From positions 1 through 44,600 of the forward strand of contig JAISSJ010000167.1 in NCBI GenBank assembly GCA_031273195.1: a stretch of DNA of 44,600 nucleotides, in the 5' to 3' direction. The translations under genes and the position numbers were made by a program. Shown in pieces: positions 1 to 13,696 of this stretch; the first letter of the stretch is position 1, and each line of letters opens with the position of its first letter. The notes under the pieces were generated by a model. The model ran no database searches, was not told the DNA's origin, and was given only the letters and a program-made list of their open reading frames with translations. This DNA is from Candidatus Fibrimonas sp. GTDB lineage: Bacteria > Fibrobacterota > Fibrobacteria > Fibrobacterales > Fibrobacteraceae.

Positions 1-1
1 A

Positions 2-100
2 TTGGCAAACCACGCCGACCCTCGGATAACGGCTCGCTACTACCGCCAGATTGACGACACGAAGAAGAAGGAGGCGTTGGCGAGAATACCGGCGTTCTAG
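2..100 (+). CDS. Tyrosine recombinase (integrase), C-terminal 32 residues only
   Basis: The reading frame is open from the window edge to a TAG at 98-100. The translation contains LANHADPRITARYYRQID, which matches the end of the catalytic domain of phage integrases: the His of the H-x-D-P-R-x-T block followed by the nucleophile Tyr in ARYY. The basic tail ends in ALARIPAF. The enzyme family cuts and rejoins DNA at att sites through a 3'-phosphotyrosine link. The 5' part of the gene lies to the left of the window, so length, start and N-terminal domain are unknown. Its presence supports calling the next 13 kb mobile. Confidence 0.8.
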   Translation: MANHADPRITARYYRQIDDTKKKEALARIPAF

Positions 101-181
101 GATTGAAACTAGACAAAAAACAGACTTTTTGAAAAGCCCAAACAAGTGAGAAAACACAAAACCGCGTTTTTATAATTTTTC

Positions 182-187
182 TATATT
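182..187 (+). promoter_or_regulatory. Promoter -10 (TATATT) for the 223 gene
   Basis: TATATT preceded by TTTTTC lies 35 bases upstream of the ATG at 223. The same T-tract plus TATATT arrangement recurs in front of many genes in this window. No convincing -35 box is seen. Confidence 0.4.
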
Positions 188-222
188 CGTTTTGACGTTC
201 AAAAAACCATAGGAGTCTTCCA

Positions 223-384
223 ATGCCCGCAAAAAAGAAAAAAGAAACTCTCGAAAGTTTCATGTCGCACAAGGTCAAAAACTACGCGGAGTACAGCGAG
301 TTCATGAGGCCGCACAATTCCGATGTCAACGTAAACGCTCTCAAATTCACCGGCGCGCGTTTGCGTCACAACAAGGTGGTTTGA
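223..384 (+). CDS. Small hypothetical protein, 53 aa
   Basis: An ATG at 223 preceded by AGGAG at 211-215 opens a 53-codon frame ending in TGA at 382-384. The product starts MPAKKKKETLESFMSHKVKN and has no membrane segment; it is basic, with Lys-rich ends. The next gene starts with GTG two bases after its stop, so the two are probably cotranscribed. I do not recognise the family. A promoter-like TATATT lies at 182-187. Confidence rests on the clear ribosome binding site and the tight spacing. Confidence 0.6.
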   Translation: MPAKKKKETLESFMSHKVKNYAEYSEFMRPHNSDVNVNALKFTGARLRHNKVV

Positions 385-385
385 C

Positions 386-1048
386 GTGAGTAGTCAAACT
401 CTGGACAATGCAACATTCAAAACCTTTGTCGATTCGCTGAAACCGCTCATAGATGACATGATGAAGAAATACGGCTCCAAGCTAGCGTACTCGGATAGCG
501 AAGAAGCTAGATATTGGAACGGTGTCAAGACAGACGTTGATGAAGGCGAAAAATGGTTGCTTGGCATAATGAACAGCGAATGCAAAAACTTGGACAGACA
601 CAAGTATTCGGCTTTGCTGTTCGTTGTGCTTATAAAAAGGCCTTTGTTCAAGGATGACATCTCAAACGAATCCGTAGGTCGTTGTTCTTCAGGAATTTAT
701 TTCGCATGGAAAGCGGCTCTCAATCTGCTGGCTATTTTTATCAAAGGCGGCGATTTGTATGATGCGCGTTACTTGGATTACATAAAGAAAAACGGCGTTT
801 CCATGCCGTCGGAAGCATACGTTTACGAAACCTTGCGCTCGCTCCAGACAGTTTTTCGCCCTTTTAAAAAAGAAAGAAAACCGGCGCAAAAGACGACGTT
901 TCCCTCCATGATGAACGATTGCCTTCCGTGCAGTAACGAGGTTTGGGGATTCGCTTTGCTTTTCGCAAACACTTTTTCGCTCATAGAAAGCAATTCCATA
1001 GCCAGACTTGAACGCAAACTACTTCACGACAAACTGAAAGAAAAGTAA
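386..1048 (+). CDS. Hypothetical protein, 220 aa
   Basis: The frame starts with GTG at 386, one base after the stop of the 53-aa gene, and ends in TAA at 1046-1048. The product (MSSQTLDNATFKTFVDSLKP and onwards) is a soluble, mixed alpha-helical protein with no signal peptide or clear catalytic motif. It may be translationally coupled to the preceding gene, as no strong ribosome binding site precedes it. It converges on the minus-strand five-gene chain ending at 1059, leaving only 10 bases between the two stops. No function can be assigned. Confidence 0.7.
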   Translation: MSSQTLDNATFKTFVDSLKPLIDDMMKKYGSKLAYSDSEEARYWNGVKTDVDEGEKWLLGIMNSECKNLDRHKYSALLFVVLIKRPLFKDDISNESVGRCSSGIYFAWKAALNLLAIFIKGGDLYDARYLDYIKKNGVSMPSEAYVYETLRSLQTVFRPFKKERKPAQKTTFPSMMNDCLPCSNEVWGFALLFANTFSLIESNSIARLERKLLHDKLKEK

Positions 1049-1058
1049 GCTTTCCGCC

Positions 1059-1238
1059 TCAAGCTCCGTCTATTTTCCGCCATCCTTTCGCGTAAAGCAT
1101 CTTGCTGAGCAAAGTTCTTTCGCAGACGCATCCCGGATGCTTGCGGCAATAGTCTTCGGCGTCTCGCTTCTTATCGAACGACGCCTCGTGAGAATGGCCG
1201 GGTTCTTTCCAAACGGCGAATATTGTTTTGTCCATCAT
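1059..1238 (-). CDS. Small hypothetical protein, 59 aa, last gene of an overlapping chain
   Basis: The frame starts with ATG at 1238 and ends with TGA at 1059-1061. Its start overlaps the stop of the upstream gene by four bases (ATGA), the same arrangement as every other junction in this five-gene chain. The product, MMDKTIFAVWKEPGHSHEAS and onwards, has three Cys, two of them in a CRKHPGCVC stretch, and is basic at the C-terminus (AKGWRKIDGA). It was not recognised. The spacing and overlap argue that it is real despite its size. Confidence 0.6.
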   Translation of the reverse strand: MMDKTIFAVWKEPGHSHEASFDKKRDAEDYCRKHPGCVCERTLLSKMLYAKGWRKIDGA

Positions 1239-1402
1239 GACATGTCCTCGTCAAATTTGACCTTGGTCATGAGGTCGGCCATCATTTTAAGCATCTCGTC
1301 CGGTTCCACAAAGATGCACGTAGTAGTCCCATCATCGTTTTCAAAACGGAGATGCCACGCGCGAATTAAATAGTCAAATCGATAGCTTCGGTATCTGGTC
1401 AT
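1235..1402 (-). CDS. Small hypothetical protein, 55 aa
   Basis: I place the start at the ATG at 1402 (MTRYRSYRFDYLIRAWHLRF), because GGAGG lies a few bases upstream and this ATG overlaps the previous stop by four bases. A longer frame reaches further upstream but would run into the preceding gene. The product has a basic N-terminus and an acidic C-terminus (KVKFDEDMS), with no transmembrane segment. The family is unknown. It is the fourth gene in the chain from the FISUMP gene and overlaps the 59-aa gene by ATGA. Confidence 0.55.
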   Translation of the reverse strand: MTRYRSYRFDYLIRAWHLRFENDDGTTTCIFVEPDEMLKMMADLMTKVKFDEDMS

Positions 1403-1632
1403 GAGTTGCCTCCGTTGTTTGAGCATTCTCTATTCATCCTTTGGATTTCTTGTCGCATGAATATCAAGCAATCCTCATAGGTATTTCGTCGTTGTGTTCC
1501 GGTTGCGTAGTCAGCCACGAAAACGGAGCCACTGCAATATTCCATTTTGTCAATCTCTTTTTCTAAAAGACTGTTTTCGCCGCATCCCGTAGCAAGCAAC
1601 GCAATCGCAGCTGCCATTAAAAGCATTTTCAT
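1399..1632 (-). CDS. Small putative lipoprotein, 77 aa
   Basis: The product starts MKMLLMAAAIALLATGCGEN: a short basic start, a hydrophobic core and an LATGC lipobox with Cys at residue 17, the pattern of a type II lipoprotein signal. The mature part is about 60 residues with two further Cys pairs of interest (EYC and EDC). Start and stop overlap its neighbours by ATGA on both sides. A small lipoprotein on a mobile element could alter the host surface or act in superinfection exclusion, but nothing here proves a role. Confidence 0.6.
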   Translation of the reverse strand: MKMLLMAAAIALLATGCGENSLLEKEIDKMEYCSGSVFVADYATGTQRRNTYEDCLIFMRQEIQRMNRECSNNGGNS

Positions 1633-1958
1633 GACTTGTCCTCCGAAAAAGTTTCAAGATACTTCAGGGCTTCGTTTTCATATTTGCAAACACGAAGCCA
1701 GTAACGCTCATCGCCGGCCCAAGCCACTACGACATAGCCAGTGGCGCGTACCGACGATTCAATCGTCATCCTATCTATTTTGTCAAGGTTAATCACGCCC
1801 GCGACATGACCGTTAGCGGCATAATGGTTCGCCCATTTCTTGTTAGCTCGTGCTATTTTCGCTACGCTCTCGCTAATATTGAATATGTTAAATCCAACTG
1901 TAATAAAAACCGCGAACATAACAACGCCAACCATCGCAAGCATATCAGGATAGCTCAT
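1629..1958 (-). CDS. Small membrane-anchored protein, 109 aa
   Basis: The start chosen is the ATG at 1958, preceded by GGAGGG at the right distance and overlapping the FISUMP stop by ATGA; the frame is open further upstream but runs inside the FISUMP gene. One hydrophobic stretch (about residues 5-28, MLAMVGVVMFAVFITVGFNI) is probably a membrane anchor, followed by a soluble domain with WAGDERYWLRVC near residue 85. No known family is recognised. It is the second gene in the chain. Confidence 0.6.
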   Translation of the reverse strand: MSYPDMLAMVGVVMFAVFITVGFNIFNISESVAKIARANKKWANHYAANGHVAGVINLDKIDRMTIESSVRATGYVVVAWAGDERYWLRVCKYENEALKYLETFSEDKS

Positions 1959-2677
1959 ACTCCCTCCTTGTCCTGGACGCAACGCACAGACCGCAAGTTA
2001 GACTTGAAGTAGTAGTGCCAGTAGGCGGTGCCGCTGCTGTAGAGCATGTCCCGGTAGTAGGCGCTGTAGCTGCCGTACGCGTCCTCATAGGCACTCCACC
2101 AGTAGCCGTAGCTGCCGACATTGAGGAAACTGCCATCCGAATTGCCGTAGCCGCCCGGCAGGGCCGAAAAGCCGTACTTGTCCGTACCATTGCCGGATTT
2201 ATTCCAGCCGCTTGTCGCCTTCAGTTTTTTCCCTGCTGTTTCGCTATCCCGTTTATAATCATAATTTTCAGGCGGCGCAAACCCGTCCGCGCAATCAATG
2301 AGCGTTTGCCACTCTTCATTTGTGGGGAGATGCCATCCCGGAGGACAGGCCTTTTTCGCTGTTTCCCAATTATATAAGCGACCGTATTTTTCGGCGTTCT
2401 TGGGGTCATTGTCGTAGCATTTCGACCCTTCGGCTTCAAAATTAAGATTCTCAGCAAGCCATGTCTGGCCTCCTATCTTGACGGTTTTGTAAACTTTGCC
2501 GTCACGAGGGTCTTTGAAAGTTCCCTTCTTTATTTTGGATGGTTTGGCCGATTTGACAACCGGTTTGACGACTGGCTTGTTGGCATAAGCCGCATATGTT
2601 TTGAGAAGCTCCAATCCCTCGGAAATGGCGGCTATCGCCGATTCCAACTCGTTCTTGTTCGATTTTCTTTTAGCCAT
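1955..2677 (-). CDS. FISUMP-domain protein with a diversified-looking C-terminus
   Basis: I place the start at the ATG at 2677 (MAKRKSNKNELESA), because AAGGAG precedes it; an upstream extension is possible. The protein has 240 residues: a charged helical N-terminus (about 1-50), a linker with KPVVKPVVKSAKPSK, then a FISUMP domain (TIGR02145-like) from GTFKDPRDGKVYKTVKIGGQ to RSVRCVQD, with PPGWHLPTNEEW and GFSALPGGYGN as landmarks. FISUMP proteins are typical of Fibrobacter and Bacteroidota, usually at the surface; this copy has no signal peptide. The last 60 residues are crowded with Tyr, Ser and Gly (see 1997-2116). It heads a chain of five overlapping genes. Confidence 0.8.
   Translation of the reverse strand: MAKRKSNKNELESAIAAISEGLELLKTYAAYANKPVVKPVVKSAKPSKIKKGTFKDPRDGKVYKTVKIGGQTWLAENLNFEAEGSKCYDNDPKNAEKYGRLYNWETAKKACPPGWHLPTNEEWQTLIDCADGFAPPENYDYKRDSETAGKKLKATSGWNKSGNGTDKYGFSALPGGYGNSDGSFLNVGSYGYWWSAYEDAYGSYSAYYRDMLYSSGTAYWHYYFKSNLRSVRCVQDKEGV
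1997..2116 (-). other. Variable-region-like tract at the 3' end of the FISUMP gene
   Basis: In these 40 codons, 29 end in C (TAC, AGC, GGC, GCC, ACC, CAC, GAC), 11 encode Tyr and 10 of those are TAC. The rest of the gene uses mixed third bases. NNC codons clustered on exposed residues just before a conserved SVRC end is what adenine mutagenesis of AAC codons by a diversity-generating retroelement produces. No template repeat or reverse transcriptase was found in the window, so this is a candidate only. Confidence 0.4.
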
Positions 2678-2742
2678 TTCAATGCTCCTTCGGTTAAATG
2701 TTTGACCTATTGACAATATAAGGGGAATTCTCGTTTTATCAG

Positions 2743-3174
2743 TCATCGGCGAATAATAAGTTCTCTGTTTTTCAAAAACCTGTTTCTAAAAACCAAAAGG
2801 CGTATGAATTTGCTATACACGCTAATATATGAGTCAATATTGAATTGCATCATAGAAAACACCGCTCCGTGACTAGAAATGTCCGTCATTGAGAAAATCT
2901 CATAGACTTTGCTTTCCACGTCCGGCTTGCCTTCATAGTAAGACAAATTCTCTAGCAAAACCAAAGCCAGCCAAACCAAAAGCTCGCTTTGCTGCCCGGC
3001 ATCCATTTCCTTAATCCACGACTTGCTTCGCTCAAAGCTCTCGTCATCGATAAGCATTTTGCCGACCGAGACGCAATGCTCGTCGCTGACCATCTTCATT
3101 TTAAGCTCCAAAGCCAAGCGTTTCCGCTCGGCATTCGACTCATCGCTAGATGAGATTTTCGTTGTTCGTTTCAT
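2743..3174 (-). CDS. Hypothetical protein, 143 aa
   Basis: The start is placed at the ATG at 3174 (MKRTTKISSSDESNAERKRL), since TATAAT lies exactly seven bases upstream at 3182-3187, so the transcript probably begins at the start codon. An open frame extends upstream to 3300 but would include this promoter. The product has a charged N-terminus, a helical middle with SELLVWLALVLLENLSYYEG and a basic end (RNRFLKNRELIIRR). No motif is recognised. It lies between the FISUMP operon and a membrane protein gene on the same strand. Confidence 0.55.
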   Translation of the reverse strand: MKRTTKISSSDESNAERKRLALELKMKMVSDEHCVSVGKMLIDDESFERSKSWIKEMDAGQQSELLVWLALVLLENLSYYEGKPDVESKVYEIFSMTDISSHGAVFSMMQFNIDSYISVYSKFIRLLVFRNRFLKNRELIIRR

Positions 3175-3181
3175 GTTTGCT

Positions 3182-3187
3182 ATTATA
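3182..3187 (-). promoter_or_regulatory. TATAAT box seven bases from the start codon (leaderless)
   Basis: TATAAT on the minus strand is followed by seven bases and then the ATG at 3174. A transcript started at the usual distance would begin on the start codon. There is no Shine-Dalgarno sequence between them. Confidence 0.5.
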
Positions 3188-3217
3188 ACGGAAATAACCG
3201 AATCATCAGTCAAAAAC

Positions 3218-3625
3218 TTACTTTCCCGTGAATTTCCTGATTTTCGAAGTCGTCTTTTCTTTCGAGTAAGAGTCGTCGATGACGCAAGTGATGTAAACAA
3301 ACAAGGTGAAACTCAAAAGACTCAATAACCTTGGATTGACTTGCGCTATTGCCATTACAGCCAAAACAAAAAGCAATCCTATGACAAAAGCAAGGCATCT
3401 TTCAAAATTGAAGGTTTCCTTGTTTCTTATCGCGAATGCCCAACCAATATACGGAATGGACGCAATTAGCATCAAAAGAATGTTTCTTATGCCATAGACA
3501 TAATCTATAGATACATCTAACGCTATCAAAGCAATAGGCAGCCATAGCAAAAGAAAATCTCGCTTGGCTCCTTCGACGCTGGCTAAGAATCGGATGCTGA
3601 AAACTGAATTCAAAAACTGTGTCAT
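3218..3625 (-). CDS. Integral membrane protein, 135 aa
   Basis: The ATG at 3625 follows AAAGGAG at a normal distance. The product has about four hydrophobic segments (around residues 26-42, 46-64, 78-95 and 99-115), for example LLLWLPIALIALDVSIDYVY, and a basic C-terminus (KEKTTSKIRKFTGK). It looks like a small multi-span inner membrane protein; no family is recognised. A promoter-like TATAAT lies at about 3673-3678. Its stop is 44 bases upstream of the next start on the same strand. Confidence 0.65.
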   Translation of the reverse strand: MTQFLNSVFSIRFLASVEGAKRDFLLLWLPIALIALDVSIDYVYGIRNILLMLIASIPYIGWAFAIRNKETFNFERCLAFVIGLLFVLAVMAIAQVNPRLLSLLSFTLFVYITCVIDDSYSKEKTTSKIRKFTGK

Positions 3626-3817
3626 TTTGGCTCCTTTCGCCCTTTCGGGCTTTGATTGTTCAACATAGCCGCATTATAAAGAAGAGTTTGCAATCCACAG
3701 TCACCGGCGAATTCGCCGAATATTGAGCCTTTCGTCATCTCGGAGCGAATGTTTTGGCACATTTTGGGACATAATGGCTTTATTTCCAAGCCAAACTGCG
3801 GATTTGACAATTCCCAT

Positions 3818-3823
3818 TATATT
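3818..3823 (+). promoter_or_regulatory. Promoter -10 (TATATT) for the DNA ligase operon
   Basis: TATATT lies 32 bases upstream of the ligase ATG, and AGGAG lies at 3843-3847. A TTGACA at 3804-3809 is only eight bases upstream of the hexamer, too close for a normal -35 partner. Confidence 0.4.
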
Positions 3824-3855
3824 ATGAATGTTAAACAATAATAGGAGATTCCGTC

Positions 3856-5136
3856 ATGATAATAGACATTCTTAAAGAAATCGCCAACACGTCCAAGTCT
3901 GGCGAGAAGAAAGCCATTCTCGCCAAGCATAGCGGCAATTCCGTATTAAAAGAAGTGTTTGAATACACTTACAATCCCGAAAAGGTTTACGGGGTCAAGA
4001 ACGCCGAAACCGTGGAAATGAACCGAAATCAATACGATTTTGAACACGGATGGCCGTTTTTCAAATACACTCTGGATGCTATGGCCGAAAAGCAATTAAC
4101 CGGCAATGCCGCACGCGACGCCATAGAACACGACTTGGAGATGACCGACTCGGCTACCCAAAAATGGATGATTCAAATATTGAACAAGGACTTGAAAATA
4201 GGATTGGGATTGTCCGAGGCATTGAAAGTATGGCCGGGATTGGTTCCCGTGTTTGACGTAGTTCTCGCCAAAGCCTACAAAGACCACAAAGAAAAGGTGA
4301 ATTTTGATAGCGGGGAGTGGGTTGTCCTTCAAAAAATAGATGGTTGCCGTATTATTAGCCAAAACAAAGCATCCGGCTCTTCATTTAAAACTCGCGAAGG
4401 CAAATATTTCACCACGATGGGAATTATGGCGGAAAGGTTTGCGAAACTAAGCGGCATAGAATTCACCATAGACGGAGAACTATGCTCAATAGACGAAAAA
4501 GGCAACGAAGATTTCAAGAGCATAATAAAAGTGGCGAGAAGAAAAGATTATACGATTCCGAATCCGACAATCAAGGCGTTTGATTTCCTTAGCAACGAAG
4601 ATTTTGACTACGGCACTTCAAAAAAGAAATACACGGAAAGAATGGAAGATTTGAATGAGTTTATCAAAAAGCATAAAATAGAAGGGGTGTTGCCCATTGA
4701 ATACGAAAGAATCACATCCAAGGAAGTATTTGACAGATGGCTTGCCAAGGCGAGAAAGAACAAATGGGAAGGCCTGATGCTCAGAAAAGACGTTCCCTAC
4801 AAGAACGGTCGCATTAGCGAATTGCTCAAAGTGAAGGATTTCCAAGACGCCGAATACGTGGTGGAAGGAATAGAAACCGGCAAATTGTCATTCAGCGAGA
4901 AAGGGAAAGGCATAGTTGAGCATGAGTGCGTGAGCGCGTTGAAGATAAAGCACAAAGGATATGACGTCAAAGTAGGCAGCGGGCTTGAAAAAGAGCAACG
5001 GATTGAGTGGTTCAAAGACCCTGGCAAGATAATAGGGAAGAAAATCACGGTGTCTTACTTTGAAGAGACAACCAACGACAGCGGGGGAGTCTCGTTGAGA
5101 TTCCCGACTCTGGTAGCCGTGAGGGATTATGAATAG
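3856..5136 (+). CDS. ATP-dependent DNA ligase, phage T4 gp30 type
   Basis: The 426-residue product has the nucleotidyltransferase motifs of ATP-dependent ligases: motif I KIDGCR with the adenylated Lys at 160, motif III FTIDGELCSID (about 203-213), motif IV EGLMLRKD and motif V LLKVKDF. The N-terminal 145 residues (IDILKEIANTSKSGEKKAIL, LTGNAA, VWPGLVPVFD) resemble the helical DNA-binding domain of T4 ligase, and the C-terminal OB domain is present. It seals nicks in duplex DNA by way of AMP-lysine and AMP-DNA. AGGAG lies just upstream of the ATG. Bacterial chromosomes normally rely on an NAD-dependent ligase, so this fits a phage origin. Two bases short of a neighbouring ORF overlap, it heads a run of same-strand genes including an RNA ligase. 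Confidence 0.92.
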   Translation: MIIDILKEIANTSKSGEKKAILAKHSGNSVLKEVFEYTYNPEKVYGVKNAETVEMNRNQYDFEHGWPFFKYTLDAMAEKQLTGNAARDAIEHDLEMTDSATQKWMIQILNKDLKIGLGLSEALKVWPGLVPVFDVVLAKAYKDHKEKVNFDSGEWVVLQKIDGCRIISQNKASGSSFKTREGKYFTTMGIMAERFAKLSGIEFTIDGELCSIDEKGNEDFKSIIKVARRKDYTIPNPTIKAFDFLSNEDFDYGTSKKKYTERMEDLNEFIKKHKIEGVLPIEYERITSKEVFDRWLAKARKNKWEGLMLRKDVPYKNGRISELLKVKDFQDAEYVVEGIETGKLSFSEKGKGIVEHECVSALKIKHKGYDVKVGSGLEKEQRIEWFKDPGKIIGKKITVSYFEETTNDSGGVSLRFPTLVAVRDYE

Positions 5137-5146
5137 GAGGCAAACT

Positions 5147-5524
5147 ATGGACAAGCCAAAGAAAGCACTCGCTAACCGCAAAATGCTCAAAGGAAGCGAA
5201 GCGAAATTCAAAGAGTTTTCCGACGACTTGGCGGAAGTCGCGAGTATTTACGAGACGTATTTGAAACTCATAGAAAAGCATCCGAAAGAAGGAACGGCTT
5301 GCTTTCAAAAAATGTCGGAGTATGAGCAATTGCATTTGACGGACGGGCTTTTGGCTTATTCTTTGCATATGCTTTTGAAAACAAACAAATACAAAAAAGC
5401 TATTCGAGCAATCGTCGTTTCGCTTAGAGAAGAAATCAAGGTTCGTTATACGTTTCACAAAAACGGAATAGGCATAACGCTGGAGCGTGCCGAGAGAAAG
5501 AAGCCAAAAGCGGAGGCCAAATAA
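5147..5524 (+). CDS. Hypothetical protein, 125 aa
   Basis: I use the ATG at 5147 (MDKPKKALANRKMLKGSEAK), because AGGAGG sits seven bases upstream; a longer frame starts at 5129 inside the ligase gene. The product is a charged helical protein with KFKEFSDDLAEVASIYETYL and a Lys-rich end (ERAERKKPKAEAK). No motif is recognised. It follows the ligase stop by ten bases and is surely in the same transcript. Confidence 0.65.
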   Translation: MDKPKKALANRKMLKGSEAKFKEFSDDLAEVASIYETYLKLIEKHPKEGTACFQKMSEYEQLHLTDGLLAYSLHMLLKTNKYKKAIRAIVVSLREEIKVRYTFHKNGIGITLERAERKKPKAEAK

Positions 5525-5556
5525 TGACCAAGACTGAAAAAATGGATTATTTCTCT

Positions 5557-5562
5557 TATATT
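5557..5562 (+). promoter_or_regulatory. Promoter -10 (TATATT) for the 5592 gene
   Basis: TATATT preceded by TTTCTCT lies 29 bases before the GTG at 5592, with GGGAG between them. This gives the RNA ligase pair its own promoter inside the ligase run. Confidence 0.4.
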
Positions 5563-5591
5563 AGAATCAAACCATTAACGGGAGAAGCATC

Positions 5592-6119
5592 GTGGCAAAA
5601 ATCATCATCAAGACGGTCTATAACCAGTCTAGCATAAATTGGTGTCCAAGCGACGGCGAATGCGGTTTTGACGTCGTAGAGCATGAAAACGAATCCAAGG
5701 CGTATGCAATAGCCGACCATATGATGTATTGGCAAGACGGCAAAACCTACGCCGTGTCTGTCATCGACGGCAAGCTTTCCAAATACCGAAGCACGCACGG
5801 CACGGGAGATTGGGTTGATGCGTCAAAAGGGAAACGCAAAGCATTGGCTCAAAAAATACTCAAAGAGCAAAAACAATGGGTTGCTGACAACAAGCGAAAG
5901 GCAACGGAAGCAAAAAAGCGCAAACCATCCAAAAGCAAGCCATTGACCAACAAGCGGATAGTGGAGCAAATAGAAGACATGCAAAAATTCTTGGATAGCA
6001 ATTTCAAGAACTTGAACCGTTCGACTCGCGTGAACAAAGGCTCCATGATTGCCGTTCTAAGCGAGGCGGCGATGATGCTTGAACGTTTCAAAGAGAATTT
6101 CAAAAAGAAAAGGAGGTAG
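5592..6119 (+). CDS. Hypothetical protein, 175 aa
   Basis: The start is a GTG at 5592 preceded by GGGAG. The N-terminal half (MAKIIIKTVYNQSSINWCPS to about residue 75) looks like a small beta-rich domain. The C-terminal half is very basic and helical (NKRKATEAKKRKPSKSKPLT and MMLERFKENFKKKRR), suggesting nucleic acid or ribosome contact. No family is recognised. It ends three bases before the RNA ligase start, so the two are probably translated from one message; a role alongside the RNA ligase is a guess from context only. Confidence 0.65.
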   Translation: MAKIIIKTVYNQSSINWCPSDGECGFDVVEHENESKAYAIADHMMYWQDGKTYAVSVIDGKLSKYRSTHGTGDWVDASKGKRKALAQKILKEQKQWVADNKRKATEAKKRKPSKSKPLTNKRIVEQIEDMQKFLDSNFKNLNRSTRVNKGSMIAVLSEAAMMLERFKENFKKKRR

Positions 6120-6122
6120 GCT

Positions 6123-7391
6123 GTGTCTAGGACAACTTTAGCCTATGTGGTGACATTAGATGGTTTTACCGCCATACCGGGAAAAGACAACATCGTCATA
6201 GCCACGTTCAAGGAGAACGGCTACGAGGTTATCGTTCAGAAAAACGACTTCAAATCGGGCGACTTGGCCGTGTACGTGGAATACGACACGGTGCTTCCGC
6301 AATGGCCGCAATTTGAGTTTCTTAGAAAAAGATGCTACAAAGAGAAATACGGCGGATTCCTCATATCCGCCATGAAGATGGGCGGGGTCGTGTCCTACGG
6401 CATAGCCTTCGCTCTGGAGCAATTGAAAGAAGTCATGGACCCATCGAAAATGAAGCCGGGCATGGACTTGACGGAAACATTGAAGGTGGCAAGCCGGGAC
6501 GTCCTCGACGAGAACTTGCAAACATTGGCGGCGTTGAAGCAAACGAAGCCTCGCTCTTTCGTGAAGAAGCTAGGCTACAAATTGGCTCATAGATTCCCAA
6601 GGATAGCCGCCGTTCTCATGCATAAAAGAAAGGCTTACGAATATCCCATTCCCAAAACCGACGAAACCCGCATAGAGAACTTGCCGGGAGTGTATGAAAA
6701 TTGGAAAGGAGCAACCGTTGACGGAACGCTTAAAATGGATGGAAGCAGCGTTTCCATAAGCATTGCAAACGGCGATTTCTATTTGATGTCGAGAAACAAC
6801 GTGTTGTTCAAAGCCCCTTTGAAGAAATTGATGAAAATAGAAGCCAAAAATCTTCCATTGGACAAATGGCTCAAGAAGATAGACAAATTGAGCTGGTCGG
6901 CTCATTTCTCGGCCATGCCCAACGTGCTTATGGTATGCCATAGAGACAAGTGGATTGAGAACATAAGCAAGATGGCGCAACGGATGTCAGCCAAGAGTTT
7001 GACTTTGCAAGGCGAGCTTTGCGGTCCGGGCATACAAAAGAACCGGATGCATCTGAAAGAACTCAAATGGTCCGTATTCAACTTGACATCAGACGGGCGA
7101 AACTATTATAACTGGAGCTATATAAACGATAGAGCGTTCCAATTTTTGAATATTCATTTCGTGACGGTTCCGAGAATATACCACGGCGAGTTCAAGTGGA
7201 AGGACAAAGCCGAAATAAAGGCTTTCGCGAACGCCTTGAAATACGAGGACGGCTCTTTGGCGGAAGGGGTTGTGTTCAGAAAATGCGACCCGTTCAGCAA
7301 TAACTATTATTGCCAGCCGGAGAAAGGCATGAGCAACATGGCGAGCTTGAAAGTGATTTCGGATGAATACGTTCTCAAACACAAAGACTAG
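6123..7391 (+). CDS. RNA ligase of the DRB0094 (Rnl5) family
   Basis: The 422-residue product starts with GTG at 6123, with GGAGG eight bases upstream. Residues 1-100 form the N-terminal OB-like module seen in the Deinococcus DRB0094 RNA ligase (VIVQKNDFKSGDLAVYVEYD, then FEFLRKR). The nucleotidyltransferase core follows: motif I TLKMDGSSV with the adenylated Lys at 204, motif III LQGELCGPGIQ, motif IV EGVVFRK and motif V SLKVISDEYV. The family seals nicked RNA, including RNA ends on DNA-containing duplexes. On a mobile element it may repair tRNA or mRNA cut by host anticodon nucleases; that is inference. Residues 101-180 form a longer linker than I would expect. Confidence 0.88.
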   Translation: MSRTTLAYVVTLDGFTAIPGKDNIVIATFKENGYEVIVQKNDFKSGDLAVYVEYDTVLPQWPQFEFLRKRCYKEKYGGFLISAMKMGGVVSYGIAFALEQLKEVMDPSKMKPGMDLTETLKVASRDVLDENLQTLAALKQTKPRSFVKKLGYKLAHRFPRIAAVLMHKRKAYEYPIPKTDETRIENLPGVYENWKGATVDGTLKMDGSSVSISIANGDFYLMSRNNVLFKAPLKKLMKIEAKNLPLDKWLKKIDKLSWSAHFSAMPNVLMVCHRDKWIENISKMAQRMSAKSLTLQGELCGPGIQKNRMHLKELKWSVFNLTSDGRNYYNWSYINDRAFQFLNIHFVTVPRIYHGEFKWKDKAEIKAFANALKYEDGSLAEGVVFRKCDPFSNNYYCQPEKGMSNMASLKVISDEYVLKHKD

Positions 7392-7413
7392 CTGTGAAAC
7401 ACGGCTTTATTCT

Positions 7414-7419
7414 TATAAT
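7414..7419 (+). promoter_or_regulatory. TATAAT box six bases from the start codon (leaderless)
   Basis: TATAAT is followed by six bases and then the ATG at 7426, placing the expected transcription start on the start codon. No Shine-Dalgarno sequence precedes this ATG. Confidence 0.5.
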
Positions 7420-7425
7420 AAGATT

Positions 7426-7665
7426 ATGGAGATTGCAATTATCTGTTTGGCCGTGGCCGTTGTGTGCTTGTCGGCTATCGTCATGATGGCAAGAAAGGAT
7501 TGGCACAACGCCATGTTCAAGGCCAGGATGTGGGAAGAACGATGCAAGGACAAAGACGCCACCATCAGCATCATGGACGAAGGAATGAAGAGCTTGGCCG
7601 TGAGAAACGAAGACTTGCTGAAAAAATTGATTGTCAAAACCATTTCGCAGGAGAGCAAAGCATGA
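7426..7665 (+). CDS. Small single-span membrane protein, 79 aa
   Basis: The start is placed at the ATG at 7426 (MEIAIICLAVAVVCLSAIVM), because a TATAAT box lies six bases upstream; an open frame reaches back into the RNA ligase gene. Residues 3-23 form one hydrophobic segment and the rest is charged and probably helical (KARMWEERCKDKDATISIMD), like small phage membrane or spanin-like proteins, though nothing proves that role. Its stop overlaps the next ATG by four bases. Confidence 0.55.
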   Translation: MEIAIICLAVAVVCLSAIVMMARKDWHNAMFKARMWEERCKDKDATISIMDEGMKSLAVRNEDLLKKLIVKTISQESKA

Positions 7666-8234
7666 AAAATAAAGTTGTGGAGAACGTTATGTCTCCCCGC
7701 CTCAAAGCAATTTTCGGATGCGTGAGAGACTACGACATCGCATTGAAGGAATTCAACGAAATTTCCGAGATTCACAAGAAGCGCATGACGCTTGAAACTT
7801 TCAAGTTTCTTTTGAGAAAGGAATTCTACAAGTCCGGCCTCCCCAAAAGCAAGTACGGCATAGACATGCCATCCTTGAGCGCATCCGGCTTGGAAAAGGA
7901 ATTCGTCATTCAGATAAAGGCGTTCCAATACAATGCCGAAGGCAAAAGATTCGGAGAGTTCAGAGCGAAAGCTCATTATTTGGACAAGGGCATCGTCGTT
8001 GTATTCAACGGCGGCTATATCGACACGAATCTCAGCAATTCGGTGGAAATAGACATGGAGCGGATTGCTCAATTTTGCCATAGCGGGAGAGTGGTGCGAT
8101 TGGCGAATGAATTAAAGAAAACTTTGACATATCCGGCGAGATACTACTATTTGTTCAAAAGGCTCCACGACATACAAAAAACGTTGCTCATGCACTTGAC
8201 GGGAAGCATTGTATTGACGGGGAACTTGGCATGA
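7662..8234 (+). CDS. Hypothetical protein, 190 aa
   Basis: I choose the ATG at 7662 (MKNKVVENVMSPRLKAIFGC), because GGAGAG precedes it and it overlaps the upstream stop by ATGA; the open frame extends far upstream in an implausible His-rich sequence. The product mixes helical segments with a beta-rich middle (GIVVVFNGGYIDTNLSNSVE). No motif, signal or membrane segment is seen. It is likely coexpressed with the 79-aa membrane protein. Confidence 0.65.
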   Translation: MKNKVVENVMSPRLKAIFGCVRDYDIALKEFNEISEIHKKRMTLETFKFLLRKEFYKSGLPKSKYGIDMPSLSASGLEKEFVIQIKAFQYNAEGKRFGEFRAKAHYLDKGIVVVFNGGYIDTNLSNSVEIDMERIAQFCHSGRVVRLANELKKTLTYPARYYYLFKRLHDIQKTLLMHLTGSIVLTGNLA

Positions 8235-8256
8235 AAGAACATATTATTAAAGAGCG

Positions 8257-8472
8257 ATGAGAATGGCTCAGTTCAACCCATACAGGCCTCTGCCTAAATC
8301 GTTTTGGGCGTACGATAGCAACACGCCGGGTTGCACTGGATGCTTAATCATCGCTACGTTCTTTTTGTGTTTTGTCGCGCTCGTGCTGTTTTCGTTTGCA
8401 AGCGGCAATGTTTCAAAAAGCAAAGACGAGCCGCAAGCAACGATTCAACCATTGGAAAATAAGCATGAGTGA
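8257..8472 (+). CDS. Small membrane protein, 71 aa
   Basis: The frame starts at ATG 8257, or two codons later at 8263. A TATTAT at 8242-8247 lies just upstream and there is no clear ribosome binding site. The product has one hydrophobic segment (about residues 29-49, CLIIATFFLCFVALVLFSFA) after a Pro-rich start (NPYRPLPKSFWAYDSN) and a polar tail. It overlaps the next gene by eight bases. Its function is unknown. Confidence 0.5.
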   Translation: MRMAQFNPYRPLPKSFWAYDSNTPGCTGCLIIATFFLCFVALVLFSFASGNVSKSKDEPQATIQPLENKHE

Positions 8473-8800
8473 AGATTTTGACATGGCGAGCGACATGGCC
8501 CATAAATTGTTCGCAACATGCGAAAGCGCGGGCCTTAAAGTGTATTCGGACGACATTTGCTGCCAAGCTCTCGCTTGGTGCTACGTGTATGGCGGCGGGA
8601 ACGAGCAAGTGCTATATGGCAAAATCCGCAACGCCATCCTTTGCGGACAATATAGACTTAATTTGCACGGCGGAGAAATTCCAAACGTGGAATTGTTGCC
8701 GATGCTCCAAAAATACATAAAATCCATAGAAGACATCCACAATCCGCCGAAATGGGTGCTTGACTTGGAGAAACGGTTTGAAATCAAGATGTCTCATTGA
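8465..8800 (+). CDS. Hypothetical protein, 111 aa
   Basis: I place the start at the ATG at 8465 (MSEDFDMASDMAHKLFATCE), inside the 3' end of the small membrane protein gene; the frame is open upstream but that sequence is the shadow of the membrane protein. The product is a compact alpha-helical protein with five Cys (ATCES, ICCQALAWC, AILCGQ) and an end of VLDLEKRFEIKMSH. No family is recognised. It converges with a minus-strand gene, overlapping it by seven bases. Confidence 0.6.
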   Translation: MSEDFDMASDMAHKLFATCESAGLKVYSDDICCQALAWCYVYGGGNEQVLYGKIRNAILCGQYRLNLHGGEIPNVELLPMLQKYIKSIEDIHNPPKWVLDLEKRFEIKMSH

Positions 8801-8982
8801 GCCGATTTTGAAACACCGTCTATATCCTTAACTGACATTCTAGGCATCGGGGATGGCTTGCATTTGTCAAAACCGGCCAACGGAGCGAATATCAACCCTG
8901 AATCGGAGAACTCGCTTTCCGGTCCGTGATAGCCGACAATAGCCGTCATCGTGTCATAGTCAGGACGTATCACAATTTTCAT
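8794..8982 (-). CDS. Small hypothetical protein, 62 aa
   Basis: The start is placed at the ATG at 8982 (MKIVIRPDYDTMTAIVGYHG) because AAGGAG precedes it; an in-frame start at 9000 would lie inside the promoter. TATATT at 9001-9006 is the likely -10. The product is small, with a beta-rich N-terminus and a Ser-rich end, and resembles no family I know. It overlaps the plus-strand 111-aa gene by seven bases at its 3' end. Confidence 0.5.
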   Translation of the reverse strand: MKIVIRPDYDTMTAIVGYHGPESEFSDSGLIFAPLAGFDKCKPSPMPRMSVKDIDGVSKSAQ

Positions 8983-9000
8983 AAAAGCTCCTTTTCGCAT

Positions 9001-9006
9001 AATATA
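9001..9006 (-). promoter_or_regulatory. Promoter -10 (TATATT) for the 8982 gene
   Basis: TATATT on the minus strand lies 18 bases before the ATG at 8982, with AAGGAG between them. Confidence 0.4.
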
Positions 9007-9014
9007 AACAAGTC

Positions 9015-9041
9015 GGATGAATTCTTTTCATCCTCGTTTTT
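9015..9041 (+). terminator. Short hairpin followed by a T-run
   Basis: GGATGAA and TTCATCC form a seven-base-pair stem with a five-base loop, followed by TCGTTTTT on the plus strand. It could end plus-strand transcription coming from the 8465 gene 200 bases upstream. The stem is weak. Confidence 0.3.
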
Positions 9042-9115
9042 ATGCGTTTCATGTCGAATTTCGCGCGCTTCGCCGGAAAAAACTGATTTTTAGACGCAAA
9101 TCCCGCAATTCCACT

Positions 9116-9121
9116 TATATT
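9116..9121 (+). promoter_or_regulatory. Promoter -10 (TATATT) for the 9211 gene or RNA
   Basis: TATATT lies 89 bases upstream of the ATG at 9211. It is followed by ATTGTG and CACAAT, six-base inverted arms 13 bases apart, which could be an operator or an RNA stem in the leader. Confidence 0.35.
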
Positions 9122-9210
9122 GTGGTTGGCGCTGACTCACAATTATGAACCGGTGCTAGGCGACAACGCTCCGTCCTGCAAGCGAGCAAAACTCAAACAA
9201 CGGAGGTGCT

Positions 9211-9366
9211 ATGAAGAAATTTGTTTCTCGTGGAACCGCGCTTGAAAATGAAAAGATGAACGAAAAGCTCTTTGCAAAGCTCTTGAAGGCAAACTTGCGA
9301 GCTGCCTTCAAGAGCGAGTACTTAACTTCATCCAGACGGATGAACTTGTACCGAGCATCCATTTAA
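9211..9366 (+). CDS. Small hypothetical protein, 51 aa, with a strong internal hairpin
   Basis: The ATG at 9211 follows CGGAGG at a good distance and the frame closes at TAA 9364-9366. The product is very basic (MKKFVSRGTALENEKMNEKL and LRAAFKSEYLTSSRRMNLYR). Within it, bases 9279-9291 and 9303-9315 form a perfect 13-bp inverted repeat around an 11-base loop. Such a stable hairpin in a short frame leaves open that the locus makes a structured RNA rather than, or as well as, a protein. The ~90-base leader from the TATATT at 9116 holds no other gene. Confidence 0.45.
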   Translation: MKKFVSRGTALENEKMNEKLFAKLLKANLRAAFKSEYLTSSRRMNLYRASI

Positions 9367-9369
9367 GAG

Positions 9370-9450
9370 CACCGCCATTGTGTTATAAGCGCATTGGCGG
9401 CATTTTCCAAGGAGCCCGCCTTTCCGATTTCTCGGTCTGGTGAGCTTCCT
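9370..9450 (-). ncRNA. Candidate structured small RNA
   Basis: On the minus strand a TATATT (9456-9461) is followed by a foldable tract. An outer helix pairs 9439-9449 with 9411-9420, an inner hairpin (9424-9435) has a CCGA stem and a GAAA tetraloop, and a second hairpin pairs 9395-9400 with 9372-9377. No credible reading frame occupies this 212-base gap (9367-9578). The left end is not defined. The call rests on visible pairing only. Confidence 0.3.
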
Positions 9451-9489
9451 TTTGCAATATAAGTCAAATCCAAGAAAACGCAGTTGTTT

Positions 9490-9567
9490 CGGCAATGTTT
9501 TTAAGAATTGCCGTCGAACAAGACCCCGGTCGCTCGTCAAATCTTGGAGGAAAACCCAAGCGACCGG
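9490..9567 (-). other. Two hairpins downstream of the 9579-9857 gene
   Basis: After the 92-aa gene on the minus strand come a stem of CCGGTCG with CGACCGG (9526-9532 and 9561-9567), enclosing a nested CTTGG/CCAAG pair, and then a seven-base-pair stem (9490-9496 with 9507-9513). Neither is followed by a clear T-run, so they may be mRNA 3' structures or part of an RNA element. Confidence 0.3.
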
Positions 9568-9578
9568 AGCTTTCTTAT

Positions 9579-9857
9579 TTAGGCCTCTGGCAAATCGCAT
9601 TCGCACGAATAGGAATGCTTCGCTTGAAGTTTCCGGACCCAAGGCTGTTCGCTGTAGAACAAGCAAAATGTCTCGCCCTCCTTCAAATGGCCTAGATAGT
9701 CATGCGGCCCCCTTCCTTGAAACGCGCCGGAATTGGCCCACCTATTTTCCCAGCATCCCATCTTGGGAGTCCATTTCCTGCATCCGAAGCAAATGCTCGT
9801 CTCGACTCCGCTTTCTTCGGGCGGAGCTATGTCGAAATAGGGTGAATCGGAAATCAT
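9579..9857 (-). CDS. Small Cys-containing hypothetical protein, 92 aa
   Basis: I place the start at the ATG at 9857 (MISDSPYFDIAPPEESGVET), which overlaps the stop of the 434-aa gene by ATGA; the frame is open upstream only as that gene's shadow. The product has CFGC near residue 24, another Cys ten residues on, a Cys at about 68 and a C-terminal CEC, which could bind zinc. It is the last gene of a three-gene operon (11952 to 9579). Function is unknown. Confidence 0.55.
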   Translation of the reverse strand: MISDSPYFDIAPPEESGVETSICFGCRKWTPKMGCWENRWANSGAFQGRGPHDYLGHLKEGETFCLFYSEQPWVRKLQAKHSYSCECDLPEA

Positions 9858-11158
9858 GAAGCCTTCTTGGGAACGATTGGTTTCATGGCGGCTTCGAACT
9901 CGGCTCTCGTTATGAACGATTGTATGTCCGTGGCCGAGGCGGCTAACGCTCTTTCGCACAATAGTTCTTTGCATACGTTTTTCGTTTTGGGAACTATGGA
10001 GGCGTGTTCTTTTCCTAGACTGGCAATCACCGAAACATAGAATTTCGCAACCGTCTCGTAGAAAACCGTGTACGCGTTTTTGTAAGCCAAGGAATCCGAA
10101 TTCAGCCATTCGCCCATTTCTATTATGCGAAGCACGGTTTGATTGGCAGAAGTCATGTCGGTGTCAAGCTGGACGCAATAATATTTCGCAGTGGCTTTGG
10201 CTTGAGGAGTGAGTCCGCCTATCGCCGGAATCCATTTGGAACTCACCAACTCGGCTCTGTCTTTGACTCGTTTTATCGCAACGGCGTAGTTTATCGGTTC
10301 CGCCGATTCATCCATCCATCTGCTAACCACTCCGACGCCGATGTCTATGAAATCATTCAAAGCTTCATGGAGCAACTCATACGCTTGGCTCATGGCTTCT
10401 TCCGACTCCAAAGCGGGAAATTCATCATGCAGCTTGAGAGCAGCGCTCTCGTTTGCTTTTTCATCTTTCGGCTTTTTCAAATCAGCCGAACCCATGCCGA
10501 ACTCGAATTGCTCCGGCGTTATGAAATCGAAAGTTCTATTCAAATCAGTAGCCGACGGAGCTTTTGCTTCGGGGCATATCTGCTTGCCGAAGATAGTCTT
10601 TGTTTTTGGAATCACGTCGGCAAGTTCCGATTTAATCCTAAGAACCAAAATAAAAAAAACTGAAACTTTGCTCATTAAATCTTTGTACAACGTTTTGCAC
10701 CCAGGCGGAACCTCGGTAGTCCACTTGTCGGAATTTATCAAATCGTATATGGAATTGTTTACGACGTCAACTCTTTTGTCCAAGCCCATTGATAGCAATT
10801 TGATTTTGCTCATGACGGCATCTATATTTGGATTGTTTGAACTGAAATTGCTCGGAATCACTCGTTTCGCTCTTTCTATGGAATCGTCAGCGTCATCCAA
10901 ATATTTTTGTATTTCAGCCATCATGACGTCGTAAGACTCGTTTATCAAATCATTGTAAATCTTGCGGCACAATCCTGGAAACGAAGACAAAGCCAAGCCA
11001 AGACGGTCGGCCATTTCTTCCACGCTTTCCATAATTTCAACGAGGGGAAACTCGGTTCTCAACGGTTGGACCGCGCTTTCTTCCGTCGGGTTGCTCTCCT
11101 GCTGGACCGATGCCGTCGGGTCAATCCCGTACATTCTTTGATAATCACCGAACTTCAT
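9854..11158 (-). CDS. Hypothetical protein, 434 aa, built from two repeats
   Basis: The ATG at 11158 follows AGGAG. The product consists of two similar halves of about 190 residues. EFPLVEIMESVEEMADRLGL (about 35) matches DEFPALESEEAMSQAYELLH (about 243). Near the end of each half, VIPKTKTIFGKQICPEAKAP followed by SATDLNRTFDFITPEQFEFGM's first residues matches IVPKTKNVCKELLCERALAA followed by SATDIQSFITRAEFEAAM. Each half is helical, with no membrane segment or enzyme motif. Such internal duplication suggests a structural or binding protein. It sits between the ART-like gene and the 92-aa gene in one operon. Confidence 0.7.
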   Translation of the reverse strand: MKFGDYQRMYGIDPTASVQQESNPTEESAVQPLRTEFPLVEIMESVEEMADRLGLALSSFPGLCRKIYNDLINESYDVMMAEIQKYLDDADDSIERAKRVIPSNFSSNNPNIDAVMSKIKLLSMGLDKRVDVVNNSIYDLINSDKWTTEVPPGCKTLYKDLMSKVSVFFILVLRIKSELADVIPKTKTIFGKQICPEAKAPSATDLNRTFDFITPEQFEFGMGSADLKKPKDEKANESAALKLHDEFPALESEEAMSQAYELLHEALNDFIDIGVGVVSRWMDESAEPINYAVAIKRVKDRAELVSSKWIPAIGGLTPQAKATAKYYCVQLDTDMTSANQTVLRIIEMGEWLNSDSLAYKNAYTVFYETVAKFYVSVIASLGKEHASIVPKTKNVCKELLCERALAASATDIQSFITRAEFEAAMKPIVPKKAS

Positions 11159-11169
11159 GCTGCAATCTC

Positions 11170-11952
11170 CTATTTTTCATCATATCCTATGCGTATCACG
11201 TCTTTCATGATTTCTATCTTCCCATTTACAATCTTCTTTTTGTTGATGTTTTTGCGGAAAGAGACTTTCAGCGGGTTCGCTTGTTTCAGATATTCCGGCA
11301 CTTTGTCTTTGAACATGCCTATTGAGTGAAACTTCTCGTATTCGTAGTTCGAAAATCCATGGAATACCACGCCTTCCGTGTTTTTGTGCAATAGTTCCAA
11401 TATGTCATCTCTTTTTATTCCATGCAAATACACGTTGCTGCTTTCTTTTTCCACGTTGAACCAGTCAGTGGTAGCCATTTTGTCGGCGAAATCCATCTTG
11501 TCTATTTTGTGCTTCAAAAACACGCCGTTCATTCGCTCGTCTCTGCCTATCAGCGTAAACAAATAATGAACGTCTCCCATTCTATGAGAATCGTATATAT
11601 TAGCTCCGAGCTTCAATTTCAAAGGAAACATATATCCCGTATGCTCATTCGTCCCGGAAAACTTGACACCCGTTGCGTCTATCTCGTTTTGCATTTTGGG
11701 GAATTGCTTGTAAAACGACAATTCGCCAACACCAACTCTGCATATATAGCTCAAAGCGTAACCAAAATGAGTCGTGAAGAAAAAGCACGAATACTCGCCT
11801 ATCTTTTTAATGTTCTCGCTCAAATCCAACTTCGGGCTAAAGCTCCCGTGCCAGTATAGCCTGTCCCCGCTAAGTTGCATCTCGTTCAATTCTTCCATGC
11901 GCATAGCCTCAAGCTCTTTATCCGTTTCAAGCAGTTCCGCCAAACTCATCAT
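11170..11952 (-). CDS. Hypothetical protein, 260 aa, possible ADP-ribosyltransferase fold
   Basis: The start is placed at the ATG at 11952 (MMSLAELLETDKELEAMRME), because GAGGTG precedes it. Near residue 34, YWHGSFSPKLDLSENIKKIG followed by CFFFTTHFGYALSYI resembles the first two conserved blocks of H-Y-E type ADP-ribosyltransferases (H-G-S, then F-T-T with a following A-x-x-Y). A late glutamate block is not obvious, though NTEGVVFHGFSNYEYEKF is a candidate. Phages use such enzymes to modify host RNA polymerase and other proteins. The match is by eye and weak. It is the first gene of the operon. Confidence 0.55.
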   Translation of the reverse strand: MMSLAELLETDKELEAMRMEELNEMQLSGDRLYWHGSFSPKLDLSENIKKIGEYSCFFFTTHFGYALSYICRVGVGELSFYKQFPKMQNEIDATGVKFSGTNEHTGYMFPLKLKLGANIYDSHRMGDVHYLFTLIGRDERMNGVFLKHKIDKMDFADKMATTDWFNVEKESSNVYLHGIKRDDILELLHKNTEGVVFHGFSNYEYEKFHSIGMFKDKVPEYLKQANPLKVSFRKNINKKKIVNGKIEIMKDVIRIGYDEK

Positions 11953-12058
11953 ATTGCACCTCACGCCATAATATACGGAAAATATAAGAAAACGCAGCCG
12001 TTTCCGCTAATTTTATTTTAAACTGATTTTTGATTCCATATTATTATGATAATCGAAT

Positions 12059-12391
12059 ATGAATGAAGCCGATGCCAAAAGCCAGCAAAAAGAAGCCATG
12101 ACCTCCGAAGCGATAGAGGCCTTGAACCGGCACACCAAGGCGCTGCGGCTCAATTCAGCCGCCGCCATGAGCGCGTTGCCGCTCGAGTTGGCCGAGGAAT
12201 ACACAGGAGCGAGCAAGGGAAAGTTATGGCTGGCCGTGAGGAACGGCGAACTCAGCCAATCCAAGCGCGGCAAGCTAGTGTATTTCCGGCGGCTGGACTT
12301 GGACGCGTGGATGCTTTGCCAAGAAAAAGAAACAAAGCCCAAAGCCAAGCCCCGCCGCGCGAAATACGGCACGGGCCAGCTGCCAATTTGA
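12059..12391 (+). CDS. Excisionase-like helix-turn-helix protein, 110 aa
   Basis: Residues about 44-84 (LELAEEYTGASKGKLWLAVR then SQSKRGKLVYFRRLDLDAWM) read as the winged helix-turn-helix of the excisionase/MerR-like HTH_17 family: choose-a-site helix, recognition helix, wing, and the R-x-x-L-D-x-W end. These proteins bend DNA at attachment sites and steer the integrase towards excision, or act as small regulators. An N-terminal helical extension and a basic tail (KPKAKPRRAKYG) flank it. A GATAAT lies five bases upstream of the ATG. Its place near the tRNA end fits an excisionase. Confidence 0.65.
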   Translation: MNEADAKSQQKEAMTSEAIEALNRHTKALRLNSAAAMSALPLELAEEYTGASKGKLWLAVRNGELSQSKRGKLVYFRRLDLDAWMLCQEKETKPKAKPRRAKYGTGQLPI

Positions 12392-12447
12392 GCATGAGCG
12401 AAATCTTCCGTTTTGGAGCAATGCGAAGATTATCTTGAAATTCGCAG

Positions 12448-12903
12448 TCAGTGGCATTTATCGCATTCGGGGTCTTTGGCTTCGCGTCTTTCGAGCCATT
12501 CATTGTCAGCTTCTTTGCACGGCAGAATGTCCAAAGATTCGTCCGGCTTTACTTGATTGTTGAACCACTGAATCAGCCTTTGGAAATGGCATTCGAAAAT
12601 TTTATGAACTTCAATATCGAAGATTTCATAGCTCTTGTATCTTGAATAGCGAGATTCTCGTTCCAAAGCTTTGTAAGAATTCATCGGGAACGAAGGCAAA
12701 TCAAGATTCGCGAGTTTGCCGGAGCGGTCTTGATGGCTTCGGCAATGAGTTGAATGAGCTTTATCCAATATCGCTTCCGCCATGTGAACCGCGCAATAGA
12801 ACATGGCAGTCACAGCCCAGTCATTGGAATGCTTGAGGAAAAAGGAGTTCAAGAATTTCAAATTATGGCGGCTATGCTCGCTATGTTTCTGAAACGACGG
12901 CAT
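12448..12903 (-). CDS. HEPN-like protein, 151 aa
   Basis: The N-terminal 60 residues (HSRHNLKFLNSFFLKHSNDW, then AVTAMFYCAVHMAEAILDK and a later HCRSHQDR) resemble a helical, HEPN-like family in which a D-W-A-V-T-x-x-F-Y-x-A-V-H stretch is followed by S-H-x-x-R. HEPN proteins include toxins with RNase activity and their relatives; the classical R-x(4-6)-H motif is not clearly present. The C-terminus is Cys-rich (CKEADNEW and DPECDKCH). The gene overlaps the upstream 214-aa gene by 23 bases, so the two form a pair next to the tRNA-proximal edge. Confidence 0.55.
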   Translation of the reverse strand: MPSFQKHSEHSRHNLKFLNSFFLKHSNDWAVTAMFYCAVHMAEAILDKAHSTHCRSHQDRSGKLANLDLPSFPMNSYKALERESRYSRYKSYEIFDIEVHKIFECHFQRLIQWFNNQVKPDESLDILPCKEADNEWLERREAKDPECDKCH

Positions 12904-13525
12904 CAGAGCATCTCACTGATATAGGATAGTCTTTGGTCAGCGAATCGGCATCCAGCCGAAAATCCGACAATAGCAAATGAGCTTCAATATGAATTTGAAT
13001 AGAGCTTGATTTTAAAAGAGCGAATTCATAGTCGTGGACGAACTCGTCTTCCAAGCCGAAAAAATCAGATTCTATTTCATGGAGCTGATTCAACGCTTCT
13101 TCAGGCGGAGCTTCCGTCTCCGGCCAATCGCCTTTCAGCAAAACCATGACTTTGACTACGTGATTGAATAAATCGAGATTGGCGCGAACTTGGCTCACCG
13201 AAAAGCGGGAACGCCTTTTTACGATTTCAGCAAGATGTCGCTCCGCGATGGACGAGGCTTCAACGCAAGCCTCCAAATAACCTAGAATATCTTCCGAAAT
13301 AGAGTCTAAAAGCTCTTTTTCATTCTCAACCTTTTCAACTCTGTCTTGCAAGGACTTGTACTGGTCGTAAAAATAGTCAAACAAAGGAGTTAACTGCTCG
13401 TATTTTTCAACGGAGCGATGTATCGCGTCGGCTATTTCGATACGCTCGAAATCTTTGCGCTTTTTGCTCAGCTTGTCCAACGCTGATATGATGTCAGCTT
13501 TGAGCATTGAAGATGAAGTTGCCAT
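12881..13525 (-). CDS. Hypothetical partner of the HEPN-like protein, 214 aa
   Basis: The frame starts at the ATG at 13525 (MATSSSMLKADIISALDKLS). A TACATT box lies ten bases upstream and no ribosome binding site is seen. The product is mainly alpha-helical, with a coiled-coil-like stretch at about residues 50-75 (YKSLQDRVEKVENEKELLDS) and an acidic middle. No family is recognised. The 23-base overlap with the HEPN-like gene implies coupled expression, as in two-gene toxin-antitoxin or defence modules, but no known pair is matched. Confidence 0.6.
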   Translation of the reverse strand: MATSSSMLKADIISALDKLSKKRKDFERIEIADAIHRSVEKYEQLTPLFDYFYDQYKSLQDRVEKVENEKELLDSISEDILGYLEACVEASSIAERHLAEIVKRRSRFSVSQVRANLDLFNHVVKVMVLLKGDWPETEAPPEEALNQLHEIESDFFGLEDEFVHDYEFALLKSSSIQIHIEAHLLLSDFRLDADSLTKDYPISVRCSDAVVSET

Positions 13526-13672: not shown

Positions 13673-13696
13673 TTTTTCACCATTGGCAAAACAACG

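Follow-up and report, generated by a model that had tools for sequence, protein, structure and literature searches.

Diversity-generating retroelements (DGRs) have already been linked to the protein family considered here, since Fib_succ_major is among the target domains predicted for DGRs in human gut metagenomes, where it accounts for nine proteins (PMC4159848; repeated in PMC8934634). Targets distant from the reverse transcriptase (RT) are likewise on record. Thiohalocapsa PB-PSB1 has 15 targets at nine loci, built on a different target domain, with remote chromosomal targets and evidence for diversification in trans (PMC10907252), and among cyanobacteria, whose 90 targets over 52 genomes also use a different domain, dispersed CLec paralogues retain remnant homology between template repeat (TR) and variable repeat (VR) far from the RT (PMC7517822). 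The phage BPP-1, by comparison, carries RT, Avd and TR together with a single cis target that has its VR at the 3' end; a hairpin after this VR is required for efficient homing, and residual low-efficiency switching has been suggested in its absence (PMC3240598). A large metagenomic survey that was restricted to the neighbourhood of RTs states that remote targets would be missed (PMC8144416), and remote DGR repertoires may for this reason be widely undercounted.

The FISUMP gene near the left end of the window (the whole analysed stretch of 44,600 nucleotides from Candidatus Fibrimonas sp., contig C25 of its assembly) can be placed beside these systems. Judged from the sequences compared below, its C-terminus is very probably the VR of a DGR, one of a set of targets that would be addressed in trans. 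It shares the Pfam domain of the human gut DGRs as well as the C-terminal position of the example described there; in contrast to these, the host belongs to the Fibrobacterota, the TR-VR pairs come from Fibrimonadaceae and from Fibrobacter of the rumen, and a genome contains tens of VR-like genes in remote places. Several loci, remote chromosomal targets and evidence for trans diversification are features in common with Thiohalocapsa, whereas here a 60 %-complete genome contains about 30 VR-like copies and 10 places with at most three mismatches to a 120-nt frame. The dispersal of paralogues far from any RT resembles the cyanobacterial case, and RT, Avd, TR, a VR at the 3' end of the target and a hairpin after most VRs of the same genome recall BPP-1, although the window gene itself has neither a hairpin nor a nearby RT. 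Fib_succ_major as a DGR target and remote or multiple targets are therefore already known, and it is the scale that is unusual. In the literature, no published case with the target number seen here and no account of DGRs in Fibrobacter itself were found, both absences being weak evidence as most subscription journals lay outside the searches.

The original prediction of a FISUMP gene on the reverse strand is borne out by a profile search, in which residues 66-235 of the protein match PF09603 (Fib_succ_major) with E = 5.2e-32 and 112 bits, above the curated cut-off of 33.9 bits. The domain is preceded by a predicted N-terminal helix (residues 2-32) and a linker, and no signal peptide was apparent by eye. 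An AlphaFold2 model of the protein reached a mean pLDDT of 90 and a pTM of 0.77; its best PDB matches in a structure search are mostly C-type lectins, yet all at E >= 0.1, and the lectin-like fold of the model is only suggestive. The coordinates of the features discussed here are collected in Table 1.

Table 1. Features of the window that bear on the FISUMP gene and its surroundings.
Feature	Position	Strand	Basis
No inverted repeat >= 4 bp; VR end, stop codon and beyond	1928..1972	-	45-nt scan
FISUMP gene	1955..2677	-	240 aa; PF09603 match, translation, AlphaFold2 model
Fib_succ_major domain on DNA	1973..2482	-	Profile match 1-187/187 (genome search)
VR core, LPGG...SVRC, 183 nt	1979..2161	-	blast to 40 other genome places; TR and leave-one-out comparisons
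NNC/TAC-rich tract, mid-VR	1997..2116	-	Codon counts, p = 2.5e-7
Phage-type ATP-dependent DNA ligase	3856..5136	+	phrog_114, E = 5.6e-81
Phage-type RNA ligase	6123..7391	+	phrog_968, E = 1.3e-42

The codon bias that had first drawn attention to the C-terminus was confirmed for positions 1997-2116, where 29 of the 40 codons have C as third base and Tyr accounts for 11, ten of them TAC. Third bases are mixed in the rest of the gene, as had also been claimed, with 57 C-ending codons among the other 200 (Fisher p = 2.5e-7). Only the description of the tract as the last 40 codons before SVRC has to be corrected: its coordinates hold, while the 40 codons that exactly precede SVRC include 27 ending in C. 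The VR is moreover longer than this tract, given that homology to paralogues and to a foreign TR spans about 1970-2169/2180, with VQD at the ~1970 end.

The assembly to which the window belongs (1.96 Mb, 186 contigs, estimated to be 60.6 % complete) yields about 115 Fib_succ_major matches in a profile search, and DNA-level blast matches to the 3' end of the window gene were obtained at 40 other places. At least 30 FISUMP domains of this genome end in a near-identical nucleotide frame in which codons are variable only at fixed NNC/NNT spots, for example, CTG CCG GGC GGC NNC GGC NNY TCG GNT GGC NGT TTC NNC NNT GTC GGC NNC NNC GGC NNC TGG TGG AGT GCC; across the aligned paralogues, nearly all codons at these spots end in C or T. 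A frame pattern with A replaced by N has 24 matches in the genome at up to three mismatches (reversed control: 0). The window copy is not one of the ten matches to the 120-nt frame because it represents a subtype with six extra nucleotides, which is common to copies on C51, C58, C135 and C149 (partly judged by eye) and probably C95; a search of viral contigs for a TR subtype longer by 6 nt gave no match. About ten FISUMP domains, arranged in an array, nearly fill a 10.4-kb contig (L121, G000:C184), and decayed VR-like ends are seen in several of them.

A putative template, with A at the variable spots, was inferred from the VRs of this genome before any look at relatives and was then run against the RT loci from 60 relatives. 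In G002, a genome of the same genus, it matches an AAC-rich repeat (L077 1067-1260, 194 nt, 88.7 %, E = 7e-70) situated about 240 bp ahead of a DGR-type RT match, and similar repeats occur in G008, G004, G031, G040, G016, and others. Within the genus, AAC-rich templates are present in six genomes (G001, G002, G004, G010, twice in G008, and in more divergent form in G005), and a DGR-type RT was found in 6 of 11, with five assemblies lacking one. Public matches of the G002 RT comprise Fibrobacteria bacterium GUT307, Candidatus Fibrimonas termitidis GUT221, and Candidatus Fibrimonadaceae MAGs as well as, further out, rumen Fibrobacter succinogenes MAGs; the isolate names fit the termite gut, which we take to be the habitat of the Fibrimonas group. 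The best PDB match of the RT is 8ub7 (E = 2.9e-30), presumably the RT of the BPP-1 DGR, and the motifs PIGxLTSQ and RYxDD are common to both. An Avd-like ORF is located upstream of the TR in the relatives only, with a weak match to NF033474 (E = 1.3e-4) that stays below the curated cut-off.

Two of these loci illustrate the arrangement. In G002, the cassette (L188, G002:C155:1-8000) consists of an Avd-like ORF (1107-1895), the TR (1960-2157) and the RT (to 3254); no VR was recognised in the first 8 kb of this contig, of which 292 bases upstream are masked, and the VRs are situated about 32, 64 and 74 kb from the cassette and on other contigs. At the GUT221 locus L238, an Avd-like ORF, the TR and an RT frame come after a FISUMP gene with two domains. 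The first VR of this gene departs from the TR in 31 of 63 adenines and one of 136 other bases, the second in 32 of 63 and 0 of 132, respectively, and two more VRs on other contigs, apparently trans targets, show no mismatch to the TR frame over 120 nt. The RT frame beside this TR (L238 3935-4948) seems truncated, with 207 of 328 residues matched; it was possibly broken recently, or a second RT exists. Similar TR-VR pairs are found at L231, L276, L239, L236 and L253 and in rumen Fibrobacter (L241-L243). In rumen Fibrobacter succinogenes and Fibrobacter MAGs (L240, L241, L242, L244), a FISUMP gene also precedes a DGR RT by about 1 kb, and nearly all TR-VR differences there fall on adenines.

With the G002 TR as a ruler, the mismatch at non-A columns is no higher than 18.5 % in 31 FISUMP copies of the window's own genome. 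In the 30 best-fitting copies (0.18 cut-off), column entropy is 1.29 bits at A columns of this TR and 0.38 bits elsewhere (Mann-Whitney p = 6e-18, an exact value that should not be over-read, as columns are treated as independent). The G002 TR has no A in third codon positions, and the conserved columns of the own-genome copies include most of these positions. The window VR itself mismatches the G002 TR at 32 of 65 adenines and at 16 of 129 non-A positions. A comparison with a hand-built template had given 28 changes at A and none elsewhere, but was partly circular and was replaced by a leave-one-out test, in which columns were classed by 18 other VRs of the genome, the window excluded, as fixed (110) or variable (52). 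The window VR mismatches a single fixed column (1/110) and departs from the commonest base in 23 of the 52 variable ones. Of these variable columns, 44 fall on the first or second base of a codon, and at 42 of the 44 A occurs in at least 15 % of the copies. The original reading of the gene as a DGR target is thus supported by the match of the inferred template to a real AAC-rich repeat beside a DGR-type RT, by variation at the A columns of that repeat and by the canonical TR-VR pairs of FISUMP targets in sister species and rumen Fibrobacter.

According to the mechanism we propose, an RT and an Avd-like protein encoded elsewhere in the chromosome would copy an AAC-rich template RNA, with random bases being placed opposite template adenines, and the resulting cDNA would take the place of the homologous 3' terminus in FISUMP genes. 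In this way, NNC codons would arise from AAC and supply a lectin-like scaffold with residues such as Tyr, Ser, Asp, Gly and Asn, whereas the frame codons would remain unchanged. The window gene would be one of the dispersed targets of one or a few related templates. The frame of the VR, its adenine-specific variation, its youth relative to the gene and the RT-TR-Avd cassettes of sister species are direct results of sequence comparison; a present or recent cassette of the species itself, homing in trans and the binding of variable ligands by the product are steps that we infer.

RT and template, which the original reading had allowed to lie elsewhere in the genome, were found in sister species, as mentioned above, and not in the own assembly, for which the refuting finding originally named, a lack of both, thus holds to the letter. 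There, neither an RVT_1 search nor a close RT protein revealed an RT, and an AAC-rich scan of the FISUMP loci together with blast using the inferred TR returned VRs only. As about 40 % of the genome is missing and 5 of 11 sister assemblies also have no RT, this absence neither supports nor refutes an active DGR; it is the reason for regarding the window gene as a remote target. It is also what an arrested system would look like, in which DGR homing produced the tract and the copy has since ceased to be a substrate owing to phage-like carriage or loss of the hairpin or RT, and to this scenario we assign slightly less than an even chance. It would agree with a gradient of VR-like FISUMPs in the genome, from fresh to decayed, and with the lack of a hairpin within 45 nt of the domain end in the window gene. 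An inverted repeat follows 10 of 12 other well-matching VRs of the genome, single cases being mostly not significant by shuffling, and the comparison is only suggestive. Against an arrested copy speaks that the window VR is nearly undecayed at non-A positions (1/110, see above), which places the last homing recently relative to the age of the gene, and if homing persists at low efficiency without a hairpin, as has been suggested for BPP-1 (PMC3240598), the argument from the hairpin would be softened.

The relative age of the VR can be estimated from synonymous differences. Among VR-like copies, third bases at identical residues differ in 16.7 % of comparisons inside the VR and in 48.8 % upstream, even though amino-acid differences are more frequent inside (45 %) than upstream (38 %). 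The corresponding third-base values are 34.7 % and 47.6 % for intermediate FISUMP copies, and 50.4 % and 52.3 % for copies outside the frame. Fewer synonymous differences inside the VR than upstream indicate that the gene is older than its VR. Gene conversion between paralogous FISUMP genes, combined with positive selection at binding residues and without any retroelement, would also leave 3' blocks far more alike than 5' parts at synonymous sites. Yet it predicts neither that variability sits on the A positions of another species' TR nor that first and second codon positions vary over fixed third bases, and sister species possess RT-TR-VR cassettes with A-only differences; the adenine-specific pattern largely refutes this alternative, which we consider very improbable. 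That the tract merely reflects FISUMP C-termini naturally rich in Tyr, Gly and Ser as well as in GC3 would suit the SVRC end and WWS motif conserved throughout the family, but is refuted by the saturated third positions (0.504) of off-frame copies in the same genome and region and has hardly any probability left.

The surroundings of the FISUMP gene look phage-like over positions 1-13741, with DNA and RNA ligases (Table 1) and many unknown ORFs up to a tRNA-Arg(CCT) at 13742-13815. Neither an attachment repeat of this tRNA for a prophage nor, among the scanned proteins of this part, phage structural genes were seen, and the claim of a mobile element is weakly supported by the nearby ligases. 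Given the phage-like left 13.7 kb and the lack of an evident signal peptide, the window FISUMP may serve a phage or mobile element. FISUMP genes also occur on viral contigs, some of them VR-like, and were not clear enough to call the window gene phage-borne; two IMG/VR contigs (L316, L317) have FISUMP genes with VR-like ends and 20-25 % non-A mismatch to Fibrimonas TRs, and one of the two has a phage terminase-like ORF. On the host-like side of the window contig, positions 32090-34363 encode a protein of glycoside hydrolase family 45 that carries InlB-type repeats together with a Por secretion tail.

In a wider context, the FISUMP domain forms a very large family of paralogues in Fibrobacterota, for which we found no published function. 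The presence of DGR VRs in many copies suggests a testable role for the family as variable binding proteins. It is an evenly balanced proposition that tens of scattered FISUMP genes of Fibrimonadaceae are diversified in trans by one or a few TR-RT cassettes and that, as the long tail of decayed VR-like copies would then imply, much of the family expansion consists of present or former targets. Fibre degraders of the termite gut and rumen would then become strong cases of multi-target, trans-acting hypermutation. FISUMP-like domains near DGR-type RTs were also seen in Patescibacteria (CPR) contigs (L268, L289).
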